Shown here: piece by piece, positions 26,383 to 31,059 of the stretch | Layout: the number at the start of each line of letters is the position of its first letter | Numbering within the stretch: the stretch's first letter is position 1 | Origin: Flavobacteriales bacterium UBA4466 | GTDB taxonomy: Bacteria; Bacteroidota; Bacteroidia; Flavobacteriales_D; Crocinitomicaceae | Assembly (NCBI GenBank): GCA_905182335.1 | Contig: CAJJBE010000006.1 | Location: 1-64,000, forward strand | Length of the DNA: 64,000 nucleotides | Reading direction: 5' to 3' | Notes under the pieces: model-generated | Told to the model about the DNA's origin: nothing | The model's database searches: none | What the model saw: only the letters and a program-made list of their open reading frames with translations | Translations under genes and position numbers: made by a program

Positions 26383-27345
26383 ATGAAATTATTTCTAACA
26401 CTAATAATTGTTGGGTTAAGCAGTCTTACGATTGCTCAAAATAATCTTTACTTAACATTCAGCCCGAAATGTTCAGGGAATGACCTGGTTCTTGGAGCTA
26501 CAGTTCAAGACTTGACAGGTGCAAGTATGGAAATCAATCATTTTAATTATTACATCTCTAACATTCATGTTATATACGATGGCGGTCAAGACATGGATTT
26601 TTCTGACACTATTCTTTTGGTTAAGGCAAATGCAAATACGTTTTTATTAGACAATGTGAGTGTTTCAAACATTGAGCAGATTAACTTTAGTGTAGGAGTT
26701 CCTGCAGTAGTTAATCACTTAGACATTACACAATATCCAACGGGACATTTTTTAAGTTTCCAGACACCTTCTATGCATTGGGGTTGGACATCAGGATATA
26801 AACTTTTGTTGTTAGATGGAAATGGCGATGCTAATGGAGACGGCACCCCAGAAACATTGTTTCAGTTACATAACTTAGGAGATAATAACTTTAAAAATGT
26901 TCAACTTCCAATTGTTGCAACTTATAGTGCGAGTGCTCAGGTAGATATTGTGGTTGACTGTAACCTAGACGAGTGGATTTACGGTGCTAGTCCTAATAAT
27001 ATTGGTATTCAACATGGAAGCTCAGGTGTAAACGCATCTACAATGAATAATGTAACTAATCGTGCTGTTTTTTCAGCACCTTTAAATGCATCTATTAATG
27101 AAGTATCTGAGGTTGGGTCTATGTACTTTGTAAACCAGGCAGATGGAGTAAGGATAACATGGAAAGAAATGACATCTATTTACGCGTATGAGATGATTAA
27201 CATTTCAGGGAAGGTGGTTGCTAAATCAAGGGTGTCAAATGTGAATAATACTGTTTTGATAGATAACCTTTTAAAAGGATCGTATATTTTCACAACCTTC
27301 AATAAGGCGGGTAAAAGATTAAACACGATCAATTTAGTTCATTAG
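26383..27345 (+). CDS. mbnP: MbnP-like copper-binding protein with T9SS C-terminal tail
   Basis: MbnP proteins bind Cu(I) after their partner MbnH converts a Trp to kynurenine. Here a signal peptide (MKLFLTLIIVGLSSLTIAQ) precedes the MbnP domain with its hallmark strands (INHFNYYISNIHVIY, FSVGVP, SMHWGWTSGYK, ~residues 130-138; the Trp of HWGW is the candidate modified residue). After residue ~235 a C-terminal module (YAYEMINISGKVVAKS...LKGSYIFTTFNKAGKR) looks like a T9SS type A sorting tail, so the protein is probably secreted or held at the surface. This fusion is unlike the Methylosinus prototype. The next gene, mbnH, starts six bases downstream. Confidence 0.82.
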   Translation: MKLFLTLIIVGLSSLTIAQNNLYLTFSPKCSGNDLVLGATVQDLTGASMEINHFNYYISNIHVIYDGGQDMDFSDTILLVKANANTFLLDNVSVSNIEQINFSVGVPAVVNHLDITQYPTGHFLSFQTPSMHWGWTSGYKLLLLDGNGDANGDGTPETLFQLHNLGDNNFKNVQLPIVATYSASAQVDIVVDCNLDEWIYGASPNNIGIQHGSSGVNASTMNNVTNRAVFSAPLNASINEVSEVGSMYFVNQADGVRITWKEMTSIYAYEMINISGKVVAKSRVSNVNNTVLIDNLLKGSYIFTTFNKAGKRLNTINLVH

Positions 27346-27351
27346 AACGTA

Positions 27352-28332
27352 ATGAGATATACTATTTACTTAGGGGGAGTCATATTGATTCCCCTTTTTT
27401 TGTGCCAATATAAAAAGTCTAAGAATCGTGATGTAGAAAAAACTACGGCAATTTCTTCTGACGACTTAATGGTTTCAGAAAAAATAGCTCTTGGCAGGGC
27501 GTTATTTTTTGACAGCCGACTTTCAATCAATAATGAGGTTTCTTGCGCTAGTTGTCACATTCCTGAGTTGGCATTTACCGATGGTAAAAAAGTATCTATT
27601 GGTGTCGCAGGACGAACGACACAACGGAATTCCCCAAGCTTATTAAATGCAGCACTTCTTCCAACTGTGATGTTTGATGGGCACCTACCTACATTAGAAC
27701 AACAGGTTATCGTTCCAATACAAGAGCATGTAGAAATGGACATGAATATGCTTGAATTGATTAAAAAACTTAGAAAGGTGGATAGGTACCAAAAAGCAGC
27801 AAAGCAGATTTTTAATCGAGAATTTGACGCTTGGGTATTAACCAGAGCTATTTCTGCCTATGAGCGTTCACTTGTTTCAAATAATTCACCCTTTGATAGA
27901 TATTGCAATCAAAAAGAGCAGGGTGCACTTACCGAATCGCAAAAAAATGGTTGGAAACTATTTTCAGAAAAATTATATTGTACTCAGTGTCATGCTGCAC
28001 CTAATTTCACCAATTTTGAAGCCATTAATAATGGAATGTATAACGATTTCGGTAATGACAAGGGGCGTTTTAGAATCTTTAATGACTCAACAGACATTGG
28101 GAAGTTCAAGGTGCCATCATTAAGAAACATAGTATTAACAGCACCTTACATGCATGACGGATCACTTCATTCCCTTGATGACGTTATTAATCATTATGTA
28201 GCAGGAGGATCTTCTCACATCAATAAAGACATAAGAATAGTTCCGTTTAGTCTTTCGGAAAATGAACGCACTGATCTAAAAAACTTTTTGTCAAGCTTAA
28301 CCGATACGAGTTATATGATAGATTACAAGTAG
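27352..28332 (+). CDS. mbnH: MbnH-like di-heme cytochrome c peroxidase family protein
   Basis: A member of the MauG/bacterial cytochrome c peroxidase family with two c-type heme sites: CASCH (~65-69) and CTQCH (~210-214). Conserved distal features include NSPSLLNAALLPTVMFDGHLPTLEQQ, IPIQEHVEM, and APYMHDGSLHSLDDVINHY. The N-terminus has a hydrophobic export signal ending near LFLC (a poor lipobox, so anchoring is uncertain). By family knowledge it would oxidise a Trp of MbnP to kynurenine. It is translationally close to mbnP and its stop codon abuts the stop of the convergent multicopper oxidase gene. Confidence 0.88.
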   Translation: MRYTIYLGGVILIPLFLCQYKKSKNRDVEKTTAISSDDLMVSEKIALGRALFFDSRLSINNEVSCASCHIPELAFTDGKKVSIGVAGRTTQRNSPSLLNAALLPTVMFDGHLPTLEQQVIVPIQEHVEMDMNMLELIKKLRKVDRYQKAAKQIFNREFDAWVLTRAISAYERSLVSNNSPFDRYCNQKEQGALTESQKNGWKLFSEKLYCTQCHAAPNFTNFEAINNGMYNDFGNDKGRFRIFNDSTDIGKFKVPSLRNIVLTAPYMHDGSLHSLDDVINHYVAGGSSHINKDIRIVPFSLSENERTDLKNFLSSLTDTSYMIDYK

Positions 28333-29517
28333 TTATTGAACACAGAGTTTAACTGCACTGCCTTGATAGCGTATGATATACATACCAGGCTTCTGTTTTG
28401 AAAGGTCAATCAGTTGTTCAGAAGATTTCAATACCATTTCTCCATCAACATCGTAAACAGCGTAGTCTGCTGTAAATGCATTTACAGCATGAAAAATACC
28501 ATTTCCTGAAGGATTAGGGTAAATAACTAAGTTTAATTCAAGTTTGTTGATACTTGCTAAAGAGGTTCTTAGTGTTACCTGTTGGCTAGATGCTACAACT
28601 TGCGTGTTCATATTAAAATACTCAACATCTACATTATAGAAGGCTTCAGTTCCAGTTTGAATTAGAGTGCCATAGCGTTCTCCGGGTAACACTTCTATTG
28701 TATCGTTTACAAAATCTTGTGGAAGAGGCCTTCCGTCGCTTAAGATTGTTCGTGCATTCATAGAGACAGGGAAGACATAGCGGACTCCATAATACCCAAT
28801 ATTTACTAGGCGTATAAAAATGTCTTCGTTAGCCCCCGTAGTGTAATGGTTTAACGGGTCTGCCAATTGCGTTTCAGATAGGCCATTCACTAAAAAGTAC
28901 TGAGGAATATAATCTTCCGGCACAAAAACGGAAATAGGGTTCGCAGGGTCGTGCTCATGATCAAGTACGGCTTCTGTATGCCAATTTGTATCTATTTCTG
29001 ATGCAGTAAGTAAAATGTCTCGATCAAATGTTTCTCCACCAACCCAAGTTGTATTGGTTGATCCATTTGACGGCTCTACAATAATGACCCCGTACATTCC
29101 TGCCTGAACATGAATTGTTGAGACAACATGACAGTGATAAATATAAGTTCCAGGGTGTGGTGCTTTAAATTGATAATAACCATGATCCATATGATTAACT
29201 GCGAATGAAAGGTGGGGGACGCCATCGTTTTCTTGATTAACATCTAATCCATGAAGGTGAATTGTGTGTGGTGCACCTTGCGATACATTCCAAAAATCAA
29301 TTTGAACCGTATCTCCCTCTGTAACACGAATAGTTGGTCCAGGCGTGTCAGTTACCTCATTTAAGGTTTCTGTAAATCCAAAAACCTTAGTCACATTACC
29401 ATCGTGCAATGTTTTTGTCCCTGTATTTCTTCCGATAATAAGCTTTGAGTAATCAATTTGCGCTAGACAGTCTAAGCTAATTAAGACTAGTGAAAGAGAT
29501 AGAATTAATTTAATCAT
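28333..29517 (-). CDS. Multicopper oxidase-like protein with T1 copper site and T9SS tail
   Basis: A protein of 394 residues. Signal peptide, then a cupredoxin domain carrying HTIHLHG (~83-89) and YHCHVVSTIHVQAGMYG (~125-140), with Cys, His and Met of a type 1 copper site in an order resembling the first domain of two-domain oxidases and nitrite reductases. The second cupredoxin domain (VNGLSETQ... NARTILSDGRPLPQDF... LPGERYG) has no copper ligands and resembles the middle domain of laccases. The C-terminus (INKLELNLVIYPNPSG... KPGMYIIRYQGSAVKLCVQ) is a T9SS sorting tail. Its start overlaps the previous gene's stop by four bases (ATGA). It may depend on that gene product to complete the trinuclear centre. 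Confidence 0.85.
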   Translation of the reverse strand: MIKLILSLSLVLISLDCLAQIDYSKLIIGRNTGTKTLHDGNVTKVFGFTETLNEVTDTPGPTIRVTEGDTVQIDFWNVSQGAPHTIHLHGLDVNQENDGVPHLSFAVNHMDHGYYQFKAPHPGTYIYHCHVVSTIHVQAGMYGVIIVEPSNGSTNTTWVGGETFDRDILLTASEIDTNWHTEAVLDHEHDPANPISVFVPEDYIPQYFLVNGLSETQLADPLNHYTTGANEDIFIRLVNIGYYGVRYVFPVSMNARTILSDGRPLPQDFVNDTIEVLPGERYGTLIQTGTEAFYNVDVEYFNMNTQVVASSQQVTLRTSLASINKLELNLVIYPNPSGNGIFHAVNAFTADYAVYDVDGEMVLKSSEQLIDLSKQKPGMYIIRYQGSAVKLCVQ

Positions 29518-30377
29518 GGCGCAATCAATAATGTGAGAAACATACCTGTAGCATATTCTTGCCCACCAGTTACCGCAACTAAGTTGTGATCATGAACAGG
29601 GTATTCACCTGGCTTGTCAGGTGTACACGAAAGAACAAGGTGCTCGTGAGGATATAGTGGGAATGTGTCTTTTTCTCGCCCAATAAAAGCGGGTGACCTA
29701 GAATCGTCTATGTTAAACAAGTGATACCCATGAAAATGCATTGAATGAATACTAAGTCCATTGTTTACCAGTACAATTTTAAATTCAACACCAACGTTCC
29801 CTGTAACTCGTGCAATTGTGTCTAGGTTAATATTGGGGTTGTGATTACCATTGACCGTAAAAAAGTCGGGGTCATAATCTGTAATATTTACTATTCCTGA
29901 ATTGGTTAGGATTGGATTCCAATCGGAATGAATTTCACGGATATCCCAGTAAAAGTAAGGTGTTAAATCACTTGGGTCTTTAACGTGAATTATCCCTGAA
30001 AGTCCTAGGTAAGCATTAAAAGGGGAGTTAACATTGTCGTTGTATCTGAATACACCAGCATTACTTAGGTTTATGGTTTGTGTCGACGAATCACCAGAGG
30101 AGATTGTACTGTATGAAACTAATCCGTCAGCATTAAACCCATGTTCTTCACTGTCATTATTTACAACCGTAAGGTTAACAACATCTCCAAGATTCCAAAC
30201 AAGGAGCGCACTGTTCTCTAAAAATAAATTGGTGTTGCTGTATGTAACAACCTCTAGGGAGTTCCCTCCAGATAAAGTAAGTGATCCGGATTTAATACAA
30301 AGACGTACATCAATGGTTGTAGCATGTGTTAAACTACAAGCAACGAATAATAGAATTGCTAAACACGATTTTAACAT
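29514..30377 (-). CDS. Two-domain cupredoxin protein with trinuclear-type His motifs but no T1 Cys
   Basis: A protein of 287 residues with a signal peptide (MLKSCLAILLFVACSLTHA). Domain 1 is cupredoxin-like (NNDSEEHGFNADGL) but lacks paired His-x-His. Domain 2 has HSMHFHG (~209-216) and a terminal YPVHDHNLVAVTGG..GM motif in the position of the laccase HCHxxxH signature; the type 1 Cys is Asp here, so a type 1 copper is unlikely. The His-x-His motifs remain. No T9SS tail. It lies four bases after the upstream gene and is coupled by ATGA to the downstream one, so a heteromeric complex with that partner is likely (inference). Confidence 0.75.
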   Translation of the reverse strand: MLKSCLAILLFVACSLTHATTIDVRLCIKSGSLTLSGGNSLEVVTYSNTNLFLENSALLVWNLGDVVNLTVVNNDSEEHGFNADGLVSYSTISSGDSSTQTINLSNAGVFRYNDNVNSPFNAYLGLSGIIHVKDPSDLTPYFYWDIREIHSDWNPILTNSGIVNITDYDPDFFTVNGNHNPNINLDTIARVTGNVGVEFKIVLVNNGLSIHSMHFHGYHLFNIDDSRSPAFIGREKDTFPLYPHEHLVLSCTPDKPGEYPVHDHNLVAVTGGQEYATGMFLTLLIAP

Positions 30378-30381
30378 GATT

Positions 30382-31059
30382 CTATTTTACAATCAATTTA
30401 CGCGTTGCATAAAGCGTGTTAGCTCTTTCAAAACGAATAAAATATAAACCCTTTCTTAAGTTTAAGTTTGAAATAACTAGCTTATCTGAATTAATTGTTT
30501 GCGATAAAACAGCTTGTCCAAGTGCATTTATAATTGAGAGTTTCGTATTTGGCAAAATATTCTGAATAGAAACTTGATTACCGGTAGAGGGGTTCGGGAA
30601 AACGTTAATGTGTTGCCCTAAATCAATGTCTTCTAAACCTAAAACAGCATTGTATATAAATGCAATTGTATCAGCGTTTATAGCATTCCCTGTATTGTAA
30701 ACTTTAAATCGAAGCTGACCACTTTCAGCAGTAGAGGCTAACATGTTTAACTTTATGAATCCAGATTGGTTCATTCCAAATTTTGACATTGTTCCTGATG
30801 TAATGTTTCCAGTGTAACAATTTGTATAATCACAAATTGAATAATCCCAGCCAGCAGGAATGGTATTTTCAATTATTTCCCATTGGAGTCTCAATGAATC
30901 AGTTGTACTGTTATCATAATTCATATATATCGTTGCATCTGTGTAACTGCCTACAATCACCGTTTGCTCTATAGTGTCGTTAAGAGTAATGTTATAGTCT
31001 TGTGCATTTAATGATGTTAGCAGAAAAGTAGCAGCTATAAGTGTGTATATTTTTCTCAT
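30382..31059 (-). CDS. T9SS-targeted protein of unknown function
   Basis: A protein of 225 residues with a signal peptide (MRKIYTLIAATFLLTSLNAQ), a beta-rich middle (LRLQWEIIENTIPAGWDYSICDYTNCYTG, with two Cys that might form a disulfide) and a T9SS type A tail (INVFPNPSTGNQ... LRKGLYFIRFERANTLYATRKLIVK). The middle part is short and has no recognised catalytic motif. It is the first gene of the three-gene operon with the two cupredoxin proteins, four bases ahead of the second. Confidence 0.75.
   Translation of the reverse strand: MRKIYTLIAATFLLTSLNAQDYNITLNDTIEQTVIVGSYTDATIYMNYDNSTTDSLRLQWEIIENTIPAGWDYSICDYTNCYTGNITSGTMSKFGMNQSGFIKLNMLASTAESGQLRFKVYNTGNAINADTIAFIYNAVLGLEDIDLGQHINVFPNPSTGNQVSIQNILPNTKLSIINALGQAVLSQTINSDKLVISNLNLRKGLYFIRFERANTLYATRKLIVK

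Follow-up and report, generated by a model that had tools for sequence, protein, structure and literature searches.

Two-domain multicopper oxidases are trimers whose trinuclear copper site is bound by residues from two protomers, and they are divided into classes by the position of the type 1 copper, which in type C lies in the N-terminal domain (PMC13151041). The type C enzymes are homotrimers that build this site between domain 1 of one subunit and domain 2 of its neighbour. Such enzymes serve as a model for the origin of laccases and ceruloplasmin by duplication and fusion, and a conserved gene pair that divides the half sites between its members would show, in present-day organisms, a second route: duplication in which each copy loses what the other keeps. 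Here we describe a candidate for such a pair, genes A and B, in a 64,000-nucleotide stretch of DNA (the window, in whose positions all unlabelled coordinates are given) from Flavobacteriales bacterium UBA4466 (assembly GCA_905182335.1, contig CAJJBE010000006.1). The two genes very probably encode non-identical subunits of one secreted multicopper oxidase, which would have arisen by duplication of a type C gene and complementary loss, would form its trinuclear site between domain 2 of A and domain 1 of B, would use the domains stripped of ligands as scaffold, and would be exported as a joint unit. We infer the copper loading, the oxidase activity and the composite site from the features below and from their recurrence in other genomes.

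29514..30377, minus strand: gene A, 287 amino acids, with a hydrophobic N-terminus and two cupredoxin domains; domain 1 is stripped of copper ligands, domain 2 carries a putative half of the trinuclear site, and there is no type IX secretion system (T9SS) tail
28333..29517, minus strand: gene B, 394 amino acids, with a hydrophobic N-terminus, two cupredoxin domains and a T9SS tail; domain 1 carries the type 1 site and the putative other half of the trinuclear site, and domain 2 is stripped
29514..29517, minus strand: overlap of the A stop (TGA) and the B start (ATG) as ATGA, read from the sequence
29721..29747, minus strand: A residues 211-219, HSMHFHGYH, the first His pair of domain 2 (H214, H216); H211, H214, H216 and H219 are invariant in 36/36 rows
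29586..29594, minus strand: A residues 262-264, HDH, the second His pair of domain 2; H262 and H264 are invariant in 36/36 rows, and the middle residue is Asp in 33 and Thr in 3
29251..29268, minus strand: B residues 84-89, HTIHLH (HTIHLHG over residues 84-90), the type 1 His H84 and the His pair H87, H89, invariant in 35/35 rows
29095..29136, minus strand: B residues 128-141, HCHVVSTIHVQAGM, with H128, C129, H130, H136 and M141 invariant in 35/35 rows
28357..28524, minus strand: T9SS sorting tail of B, residues 332-387 (Por_Secre_tail PF18962, E 7.2e-8)

The initial annotation of this DNA had placed two genes with a four-base ATGA overlap at 29514-30377 and 28333-29517; both open reading frames are present, and we add that they lie on the minus strand. 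The overlap suggests that translation of A and B is coupled, and a four-base overlap of this kind, with ATG, GTG or TTG as the start, occurs in 38 of the 62 pairs with A preceding B that came from the first searches. In Pfam, B matches Cu-oxidase_3 over residues 57-151 (E 9.6e-18) and A matches Cu-oxidase_2 over residues 173-267 (E 9.7e-12), with the sorting tail not among the matches of A. The nearest solved sequences are the same for both genes, namely the two-domain chains 3g5w (E 2.3e-18 for B, 6.8e-5 for A) and 2zwn (E 1.6e-17 for B, 6.3e-7 for A), which we take to be type C. By sequence, A and B are thus placed among the relatives of multicopper oxidases, as kin of the type C two-domain enzymes.

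Complementary His motifs had been noticed before, and the alignments bear them out, since the ligand columns are invariant in 36/36 A and 35/35 B rows, far beyond chance. Domain 1 of B has the complete type C set of eight ligands (H84, H87, H89, H128, C129, H130, H136 and M141; 35/35 rows), and in a wider collection of pairs these read HHHHCHHM in 141/142, the remaining B being cut by a contig end. The residues H214, H216, H219, H262 and H264 of A are present together in 139 of the 142 paired genes (in the other three the stretch is cut or unaligned), while H211, which occupies the type 1 His position, gives way to Gln, Tyr, Asn or Ser in 13/142. Because H211 varies while the other histidines are kept, A appears to retain the trinuclear set. 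The motifs HSMHFHG and HDH in domain 2 of A are as the initial annotation gave them, but the Asp at the place of the type 1 Cys, also noted there, is not peculiar to A and is normal for a type C domain 2; that of 2zwn has the sequence FHDHVDTH. In distant A proteins (L277, on plasmid pTC1, 3661-5451, and L279/L280) the second His pair is HCH instead of HDH, and the rest of a type 1 site is absent by eye.

The other two domains have lost what their counterparts keep. A type 1 motif was found in domain 1 of A in 0/141 genes, and domain 2 of B has HxHG in 0/131 and any HxH in 1/131, so that domain 1 of B, contrary to an arrangement considered beforehand, would be unable to complete the site with its own domain 2. 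These counts are of motifs; scoring domain 1 of A against the B profile was not used because domain 2 of A aligns there. Neither stripped domain has an invariant His, the most conserved being H79 of A (31/36 rows), which as judged by eye falls at the type 1 His position of domain 1, and H180 of B (30/35). At the sequence level, all twelve ligands expected of a multicopper oxidase, an enzyme with four coppers that reduces O2 to water, are present across A and B together, and individual histidines are assigned to individual coppers by analogy with the family. The type 1 site of type C enzymes, in the N-terminal domain, is found in B (eight ligands, 35/35 rows) and not in A, which has lost the Cys and His. 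Both trinuclear halves are found in neither chain, A being without the domain-1 half and B without the domain-2 half, and for this reason neither gene counts as a type C member, although the two together should function as such an enzyme does.

A structure model was made from a locus, L113, in which a single stop separates A from B within one reading frame. The tandem of 584 residues, with that stop read as a residue, was modelled with AlphaFold2 on an alignment of 22 rows, of which two hold both halves. The mean predicted local distance difference test score (pLDDT) is 85.5 and the predicted template modelling score (pTM) 0.87, and the model is weakest near the linker and in a few loops. In the PDB it matches ceruloplasmin, factors V and VIII and MnxG (9bxa) best, over 689-833 columns with TMq 0.59-0.68 and a root-mean-square deviation of 6.1-9.2; against the single chains 2zwn and 3g5w it aligns over 279-311 columns with 29-30% identity and TMt 0.67-0.71. 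The chains of three-domain laccases match with TMq 0.33-0.37 (1zpu and 1aoz at 0.34), and the hallmarks of that class, three cupredoxin domains per chain with the type 1 copper in domain 3, are missing, since there are two domains per chain. We read the tandem fold as that of neighbouring subunits of a two-domain ring, in which, on this model, domain 2 of A should abut domain 1 of B. The alignment used replaced a 65-row joint alignment (A3), dropped because MAFFT placed B rows on the A half; rows were drawn at random by script, from 18 down to 10 of each kind, until each row lay on its own half, which left 10/33 A rows, 10/31 B rows and the two tandem rows. The A frames of L113 (3532-6810, 1093 amino acids) and of another locus, L202 (702-4085, 1128 amino acids), are very long, with large N-terminal extensions before the two A domains; the extension in L202 resembles repeated beta-sandwich segments.

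The two genes are found together with few exceptions. In the first searches, 69 unique A genes had B downstream in 62 cases, upstream in 4 and none in reach in 3. The full count takes A genes with identical last 120 residues once and admits an A gene only if it outscores the B profile by 15 percent, a rule that removed one more pair (L205). On this basis B adjoins A in 142 of 150 unique A genes, with A preceding B in 138 and B preceding A in 4, and eight A genes stand alone; for six of these (L121, L194, L226, L235, L029 and L187) the contig runs out on the side expected to hold B. Ten further matches from the window's order, read after this count and kept apart from it, comprise nine beside a B and one at a contig end. 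Seen from the other gene, 27/27 B matches with E<1e-20 in a set of 60 relatives adjoin an A; A itself occurs in 26 of these 60, among them G019, which has a one-gene enzyme. Forms that keep the copper ligands are therefore not widespread without their partner (142/150, 9/10 later, 27/27 from B). In a genome that is 97% complete, one locus, L025/L056 (G049:C3:216771-218128), holds a pair that several in-frame stops mark as decayed.

Within the window's order, A-type matches occur in 104/399 genomes. In an even draw of 395 Bacteroidota genomes the pair was found only in the window's own genome, so that its distribution outside that order is patchy. Scanning species genomes for the sequence pattern yielded 64 loci, of which 58 lie in Bacteroidota or unplaced metagenome-assembled genomes, five lie in Gammaproteobacteria and one is a one-gene Rhizobium enzyme. 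Gammaproteobacteria have A-type matches in 29/369 genomes; eight are one-gene type C enzymes (L207-L214), and of the other 21, B lies beside A in 19 and the contig ends there in two (L187, L194). Besides Bacteroidota and Gammaproteobacteria, the pair is carried by plasmids of Alphaproteobacteria and of an Arthrobacter. Four plasmid records match a gammaproteobacterial A. Two of these come from Indioceanicola profundi and have the A and B genes adjacent, and the other two are the Arthrobacter and pTC1 records described below; no plasmid match was obtained for P0002.

Phylogeny is consistent with a common origin of the two genes. When ten one-gene type C enzymes serve as the root, a tree of 69 rows groups the 30 A rows into one clade and the 29 B rows into another, each with support of 100/99, although the columns lost in different halves help to separate them; each clade holds both Bacteroidota and Gammaproteobacteria. 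A first tree of 40 rows had given 93/92 for A and 100/99 for B. The distances among A and among B are correlated over 32 Bacteroidota pairs (r = 0.85; 0/2000 permutations as high), a figure to which shared host ancestry contributes. The one-gene enzymes form a separate group, and one of them shares its locus with a pair (L105). The simplest reading of the sequences is a single duplication of a type C gene followed by complementary loss.

Export signals differ between the two genes and between the phyla. The T9SS tail occurs in 32/35 B rows, the other three being shorter gammaproteobacterial rows, as against 0/36 A rows; the C-terminal sorting domain that marks T9SS cargo (PF18962) is thus found in B and absent from A, and the claim that only one subunit has such a tail stands. 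N-termini were scored by hydropathy, not with a signal-peptide predictor, a hydrophobic core being a mean of 1.5 or more over 12 residues, and the related loci counted are not independent of one another. In Bacteroidota both chains have hydrophobic N-termini (114/116 A and 116/116 B among the pairs), and in 25 gammaproteobacterial pairs a hydrophobic N-terminal core is present in 25 A but only 4 B. The motif RR-x-[FLIM]-[LIMVQ], like that of twin-arginine translocation (Tat) signals, occurs in 22/25 gammaproteobacterial A, and the three A without it (L188, L189 and L202) each have a B with a core of its own. A loose RR pattern is also present in four B (L185, L186, L193 and L204), of which only L186 has a hydrophobic core. 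Where a signal peptide would be expected, many gammaproteobacterial B (L183-L206) instead start with low-complexity stretches rich in Gly and Met, and these might possibly bind metal.

Both Tat and T9SS transport folded proteins. Some Tat substrates are reported to leave as heterodimers with the signal on one partner (PMC10924467). A complex assembled before export predicts one signal for two chains, which matches the one-sided signals described above, and co-export of A and B would follow. Together, the ligand split, the gene pairing and the one-sided signals favour the heteromer with a single shared trinuclear cluster that the initial annotation had proposed.

Three other explanations can be set against this evidence. 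In the first, no active site is shared, B being a blue-copper electron carrier and A a His-rich copper binder that form separate homo-oligomers and are linked by function only. The B relatives that persist without a copper motif beside tyrosinase suggest a fold fit for other roles, and a plasmid-borne A without B exists; however, the conserved histidines of each chain are those of type C in that domain, with the missing half in the neighbouring gene, and 21/25 gammaproteobacterial B are without the hydrophobic N-terminus of their own that separate export would need. We consider this explanation improbable. In the second, the composite is not catalytic and uses the shared site for binding only, as a copper store, copper sensor or matrix protein. 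Part of the loci do have copper-related rather than catabolic neighbours, and relatives of the same fold without copper ligands exist, but 141/142 B have the whole type 1 Cys-His-Met set, which electron transfer requires and storage does not, and we give such a role very little credence. That A and B are pieces of a one-gene enzyme that has decayed, or result from faulty assembly of the sequence, as the broken copies L025 and L259 might suggest, is scarcely credible when each chain has two complete domains and its own N-terminus, the split recurs in 142/150 genes with the same ligand division and in two well supported clades, and one-gene enzymes coexist as a separate group, even within the locus of a pair (L105).

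Several observations nevertheless weigh against A and B being subunits of one enzyme. Two of the lone A genes are broken, L025 by several stops, with B fragments coming after, and L259 by an in-frame stop, with B absent from the 1,007 bases that remain on the contig. Plasmid pTC1 of Paenarthrobacter aurescens has A without B (plasmid records were searched, the chromosome was not). Conversely, B relatives without A occur in 4/395 Bacteroidota genomes (L129-L132), with their copper motifs gone and in an operon with a tyrosinase and a relative of SMALL, a gene described below; their persistence indicates that the B fold can outlive the copper site. An HxH of some kind is present in domain 1 of A in 17/141 genes, four gammaproteobacterial B (L186, L188, L189 and L202) have a hydrophobic core of their own, and the tandem model drew on few rows with both halves. 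Of the two arrangements that the initial annotation had proposed to look for in other genomes, the pair in the same order recurs, as counted above, but no intact A-B fusion gene was found among the loci examined. Lastly, a three-membered ring cannot alternate A and B, so that the chains must assemble otherwise, into an AB arc, a ring of composition A2B or AB2, or an even assembly of larger size.

Two loci bear on the subject of fusion. L108, which has A and B in one frame, was considered and rejected as a fusion; it has a complete signal peptide inside and an altered A end, and we attribute it to a frame break in a metagenome contig. On a plasmid of Arthrobacter sp. FW305-BF8 (L278, 4147-6560), the A frame enters the B start without a new signal peptide and B continues in a second frame. 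This locus is a natural fusion of the halves, interrupted as deposited.

If A and B are subunits of one oxidase, its working can be outlined as follows. A type C two-domain gene would have been duplicated, and complementary loss would then have produced A and B. Electrons from the substrate would enter at the type 1 copper of B and travel along its HCH segment to the trinuclear site, a route that is established for multicopper oxidases. That site would be made of H87, H89, H128 and H130 of B and H214, H216, H262 and H264 of A, and O2 would be reduced there. It would form where domain 2 of A meets domain 1 of B, as it does between identical subunits of known two-domain enzymes, with the stripped domain 1 of A and domain 2 of B acting as scaffold. 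The two chains would assemble before the exporter of folded proteins, so that a single signal could serve both, borne by B (the T9SS tail) in Bacteroidota and by A (a Tat-like signal) in most gammaproteobacterial pairs.

We lean, with less assurance, towards a broader proposal, that multicopper oxidases of this kind are obligate hetero-oligomers and make up a family that spans four or more bacterial groups. One four-copper centre would have been divided between paralogous genes by complementary loss, and the enzyme would be assembled before export and transported folded, as a whole, by means of a signal that A bears for Tat and B bears for T9SS. Its form may be that of an asymmetric A2B or AB2 ring with a single active site.

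Three neighbouring genes are of interest for the function of the pair:

30382..31059, minus strand: SMALL, third gene of the probable operon, upstream of A; 225 amino acids, with an immunoglobulin (Ig)-like domain, invariant C76 and C81 and a T9SS tail
26383..27345, plus strand: MbnP-family protein, a convergent neighbour (PF20243, E 2.9e-29)
27352..28332, plus strand: MbnH-like di-heme enzyme, convergent and ending next to the B stop (TIGR04039, E 8.5e-78, below the curated cut-off)

In SMALL, both cysteines are invariant in 43 rows, and a model with a pLDDT of 91.7 matches only generic Ig-like folds. It is possibly an accessory or copper-handling protein, and it may serve several copper oxidases, its relatives also lying beside tyrosinase in other Bacteroidota. 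Among 63 pair loci, relatives of SMALL were found in 49, of MbnH in 17, of MbnP in 15 and of a heavy-metal-associated domain protein in 6. The orientation of the MbnP and MbnH genes varies between loci, some having them convergent with the pair and others having them downstream of it on its own strand, which indicates that the link exceeds a single arrangement passed on by descent. In Lysobacterales, the genes that come before the pair encode a metal P-type ATPase, which has YHS and HMBD domains, and a cytochrome c. These neighbours hint that the pair may help to handle copper outside the cytoplasm, perhaps by oxidising Cu(I). The role of MbnP and MbnH in methanobactin clusters was called unclear in 2013 (PMC3621798).

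In the annotated records consulted, the halves are named hypothetical, Tat domain protein or multicopper oxidase domain-containing protein, under which the enzyme is not recognisable as a unit. A literature search that lacked most subscription journals and all bioRxiv preprints returned no paper on an oxidase whose trinuclear site is split between two genes. The pair would also allow a clear test of whether a passenger subunit travels through Tat and T9SS with a partner that bears the signal, and of the time at which copper is loaded.

Among known systems, the type C enzymes, represented by the Nitrosomonas europaea blue copper oxidase (3g5w) and a metagenome laccase (2zwn), are the most similar. 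As in these, there are two cupredoxin domains per chain (judged by sequence, Pfam and the tandem model), a predicted type 1 copper in domain 1 (in B, not in A), and His pairs in domains 1 and 2; unlike these homo-oligomers, in which one gene supplies both half sites in each chain, A and B have each kept only the half that the other lost. There is also a likeness to ceruloplasmin and factors V and VIII, in that the A-B tandem matches four consecutive domains of their chains, and factors V and VIII work as chains cut from one precursor. These proteins are nevertheless encoded by single genes with six cupredoxin domains, in contrast to the two small bacterial genes described here. The name heterodimeric is applied to two-chain laccases of fungi. 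In those enzymes the small subunit is not known to be a multicopper oxidase and the large subunit holds all the coppers. The MnxEFG manganese oxidase of Bacillus resembles the proposed A-B enzyme in being a multicopper oxidase that requires other subunits (PMC5622069). It differs in that only mnxG encodes a multicopper oxidase and MnxE and MnxF form a separate E3F3 hexamer (PMC5622069).

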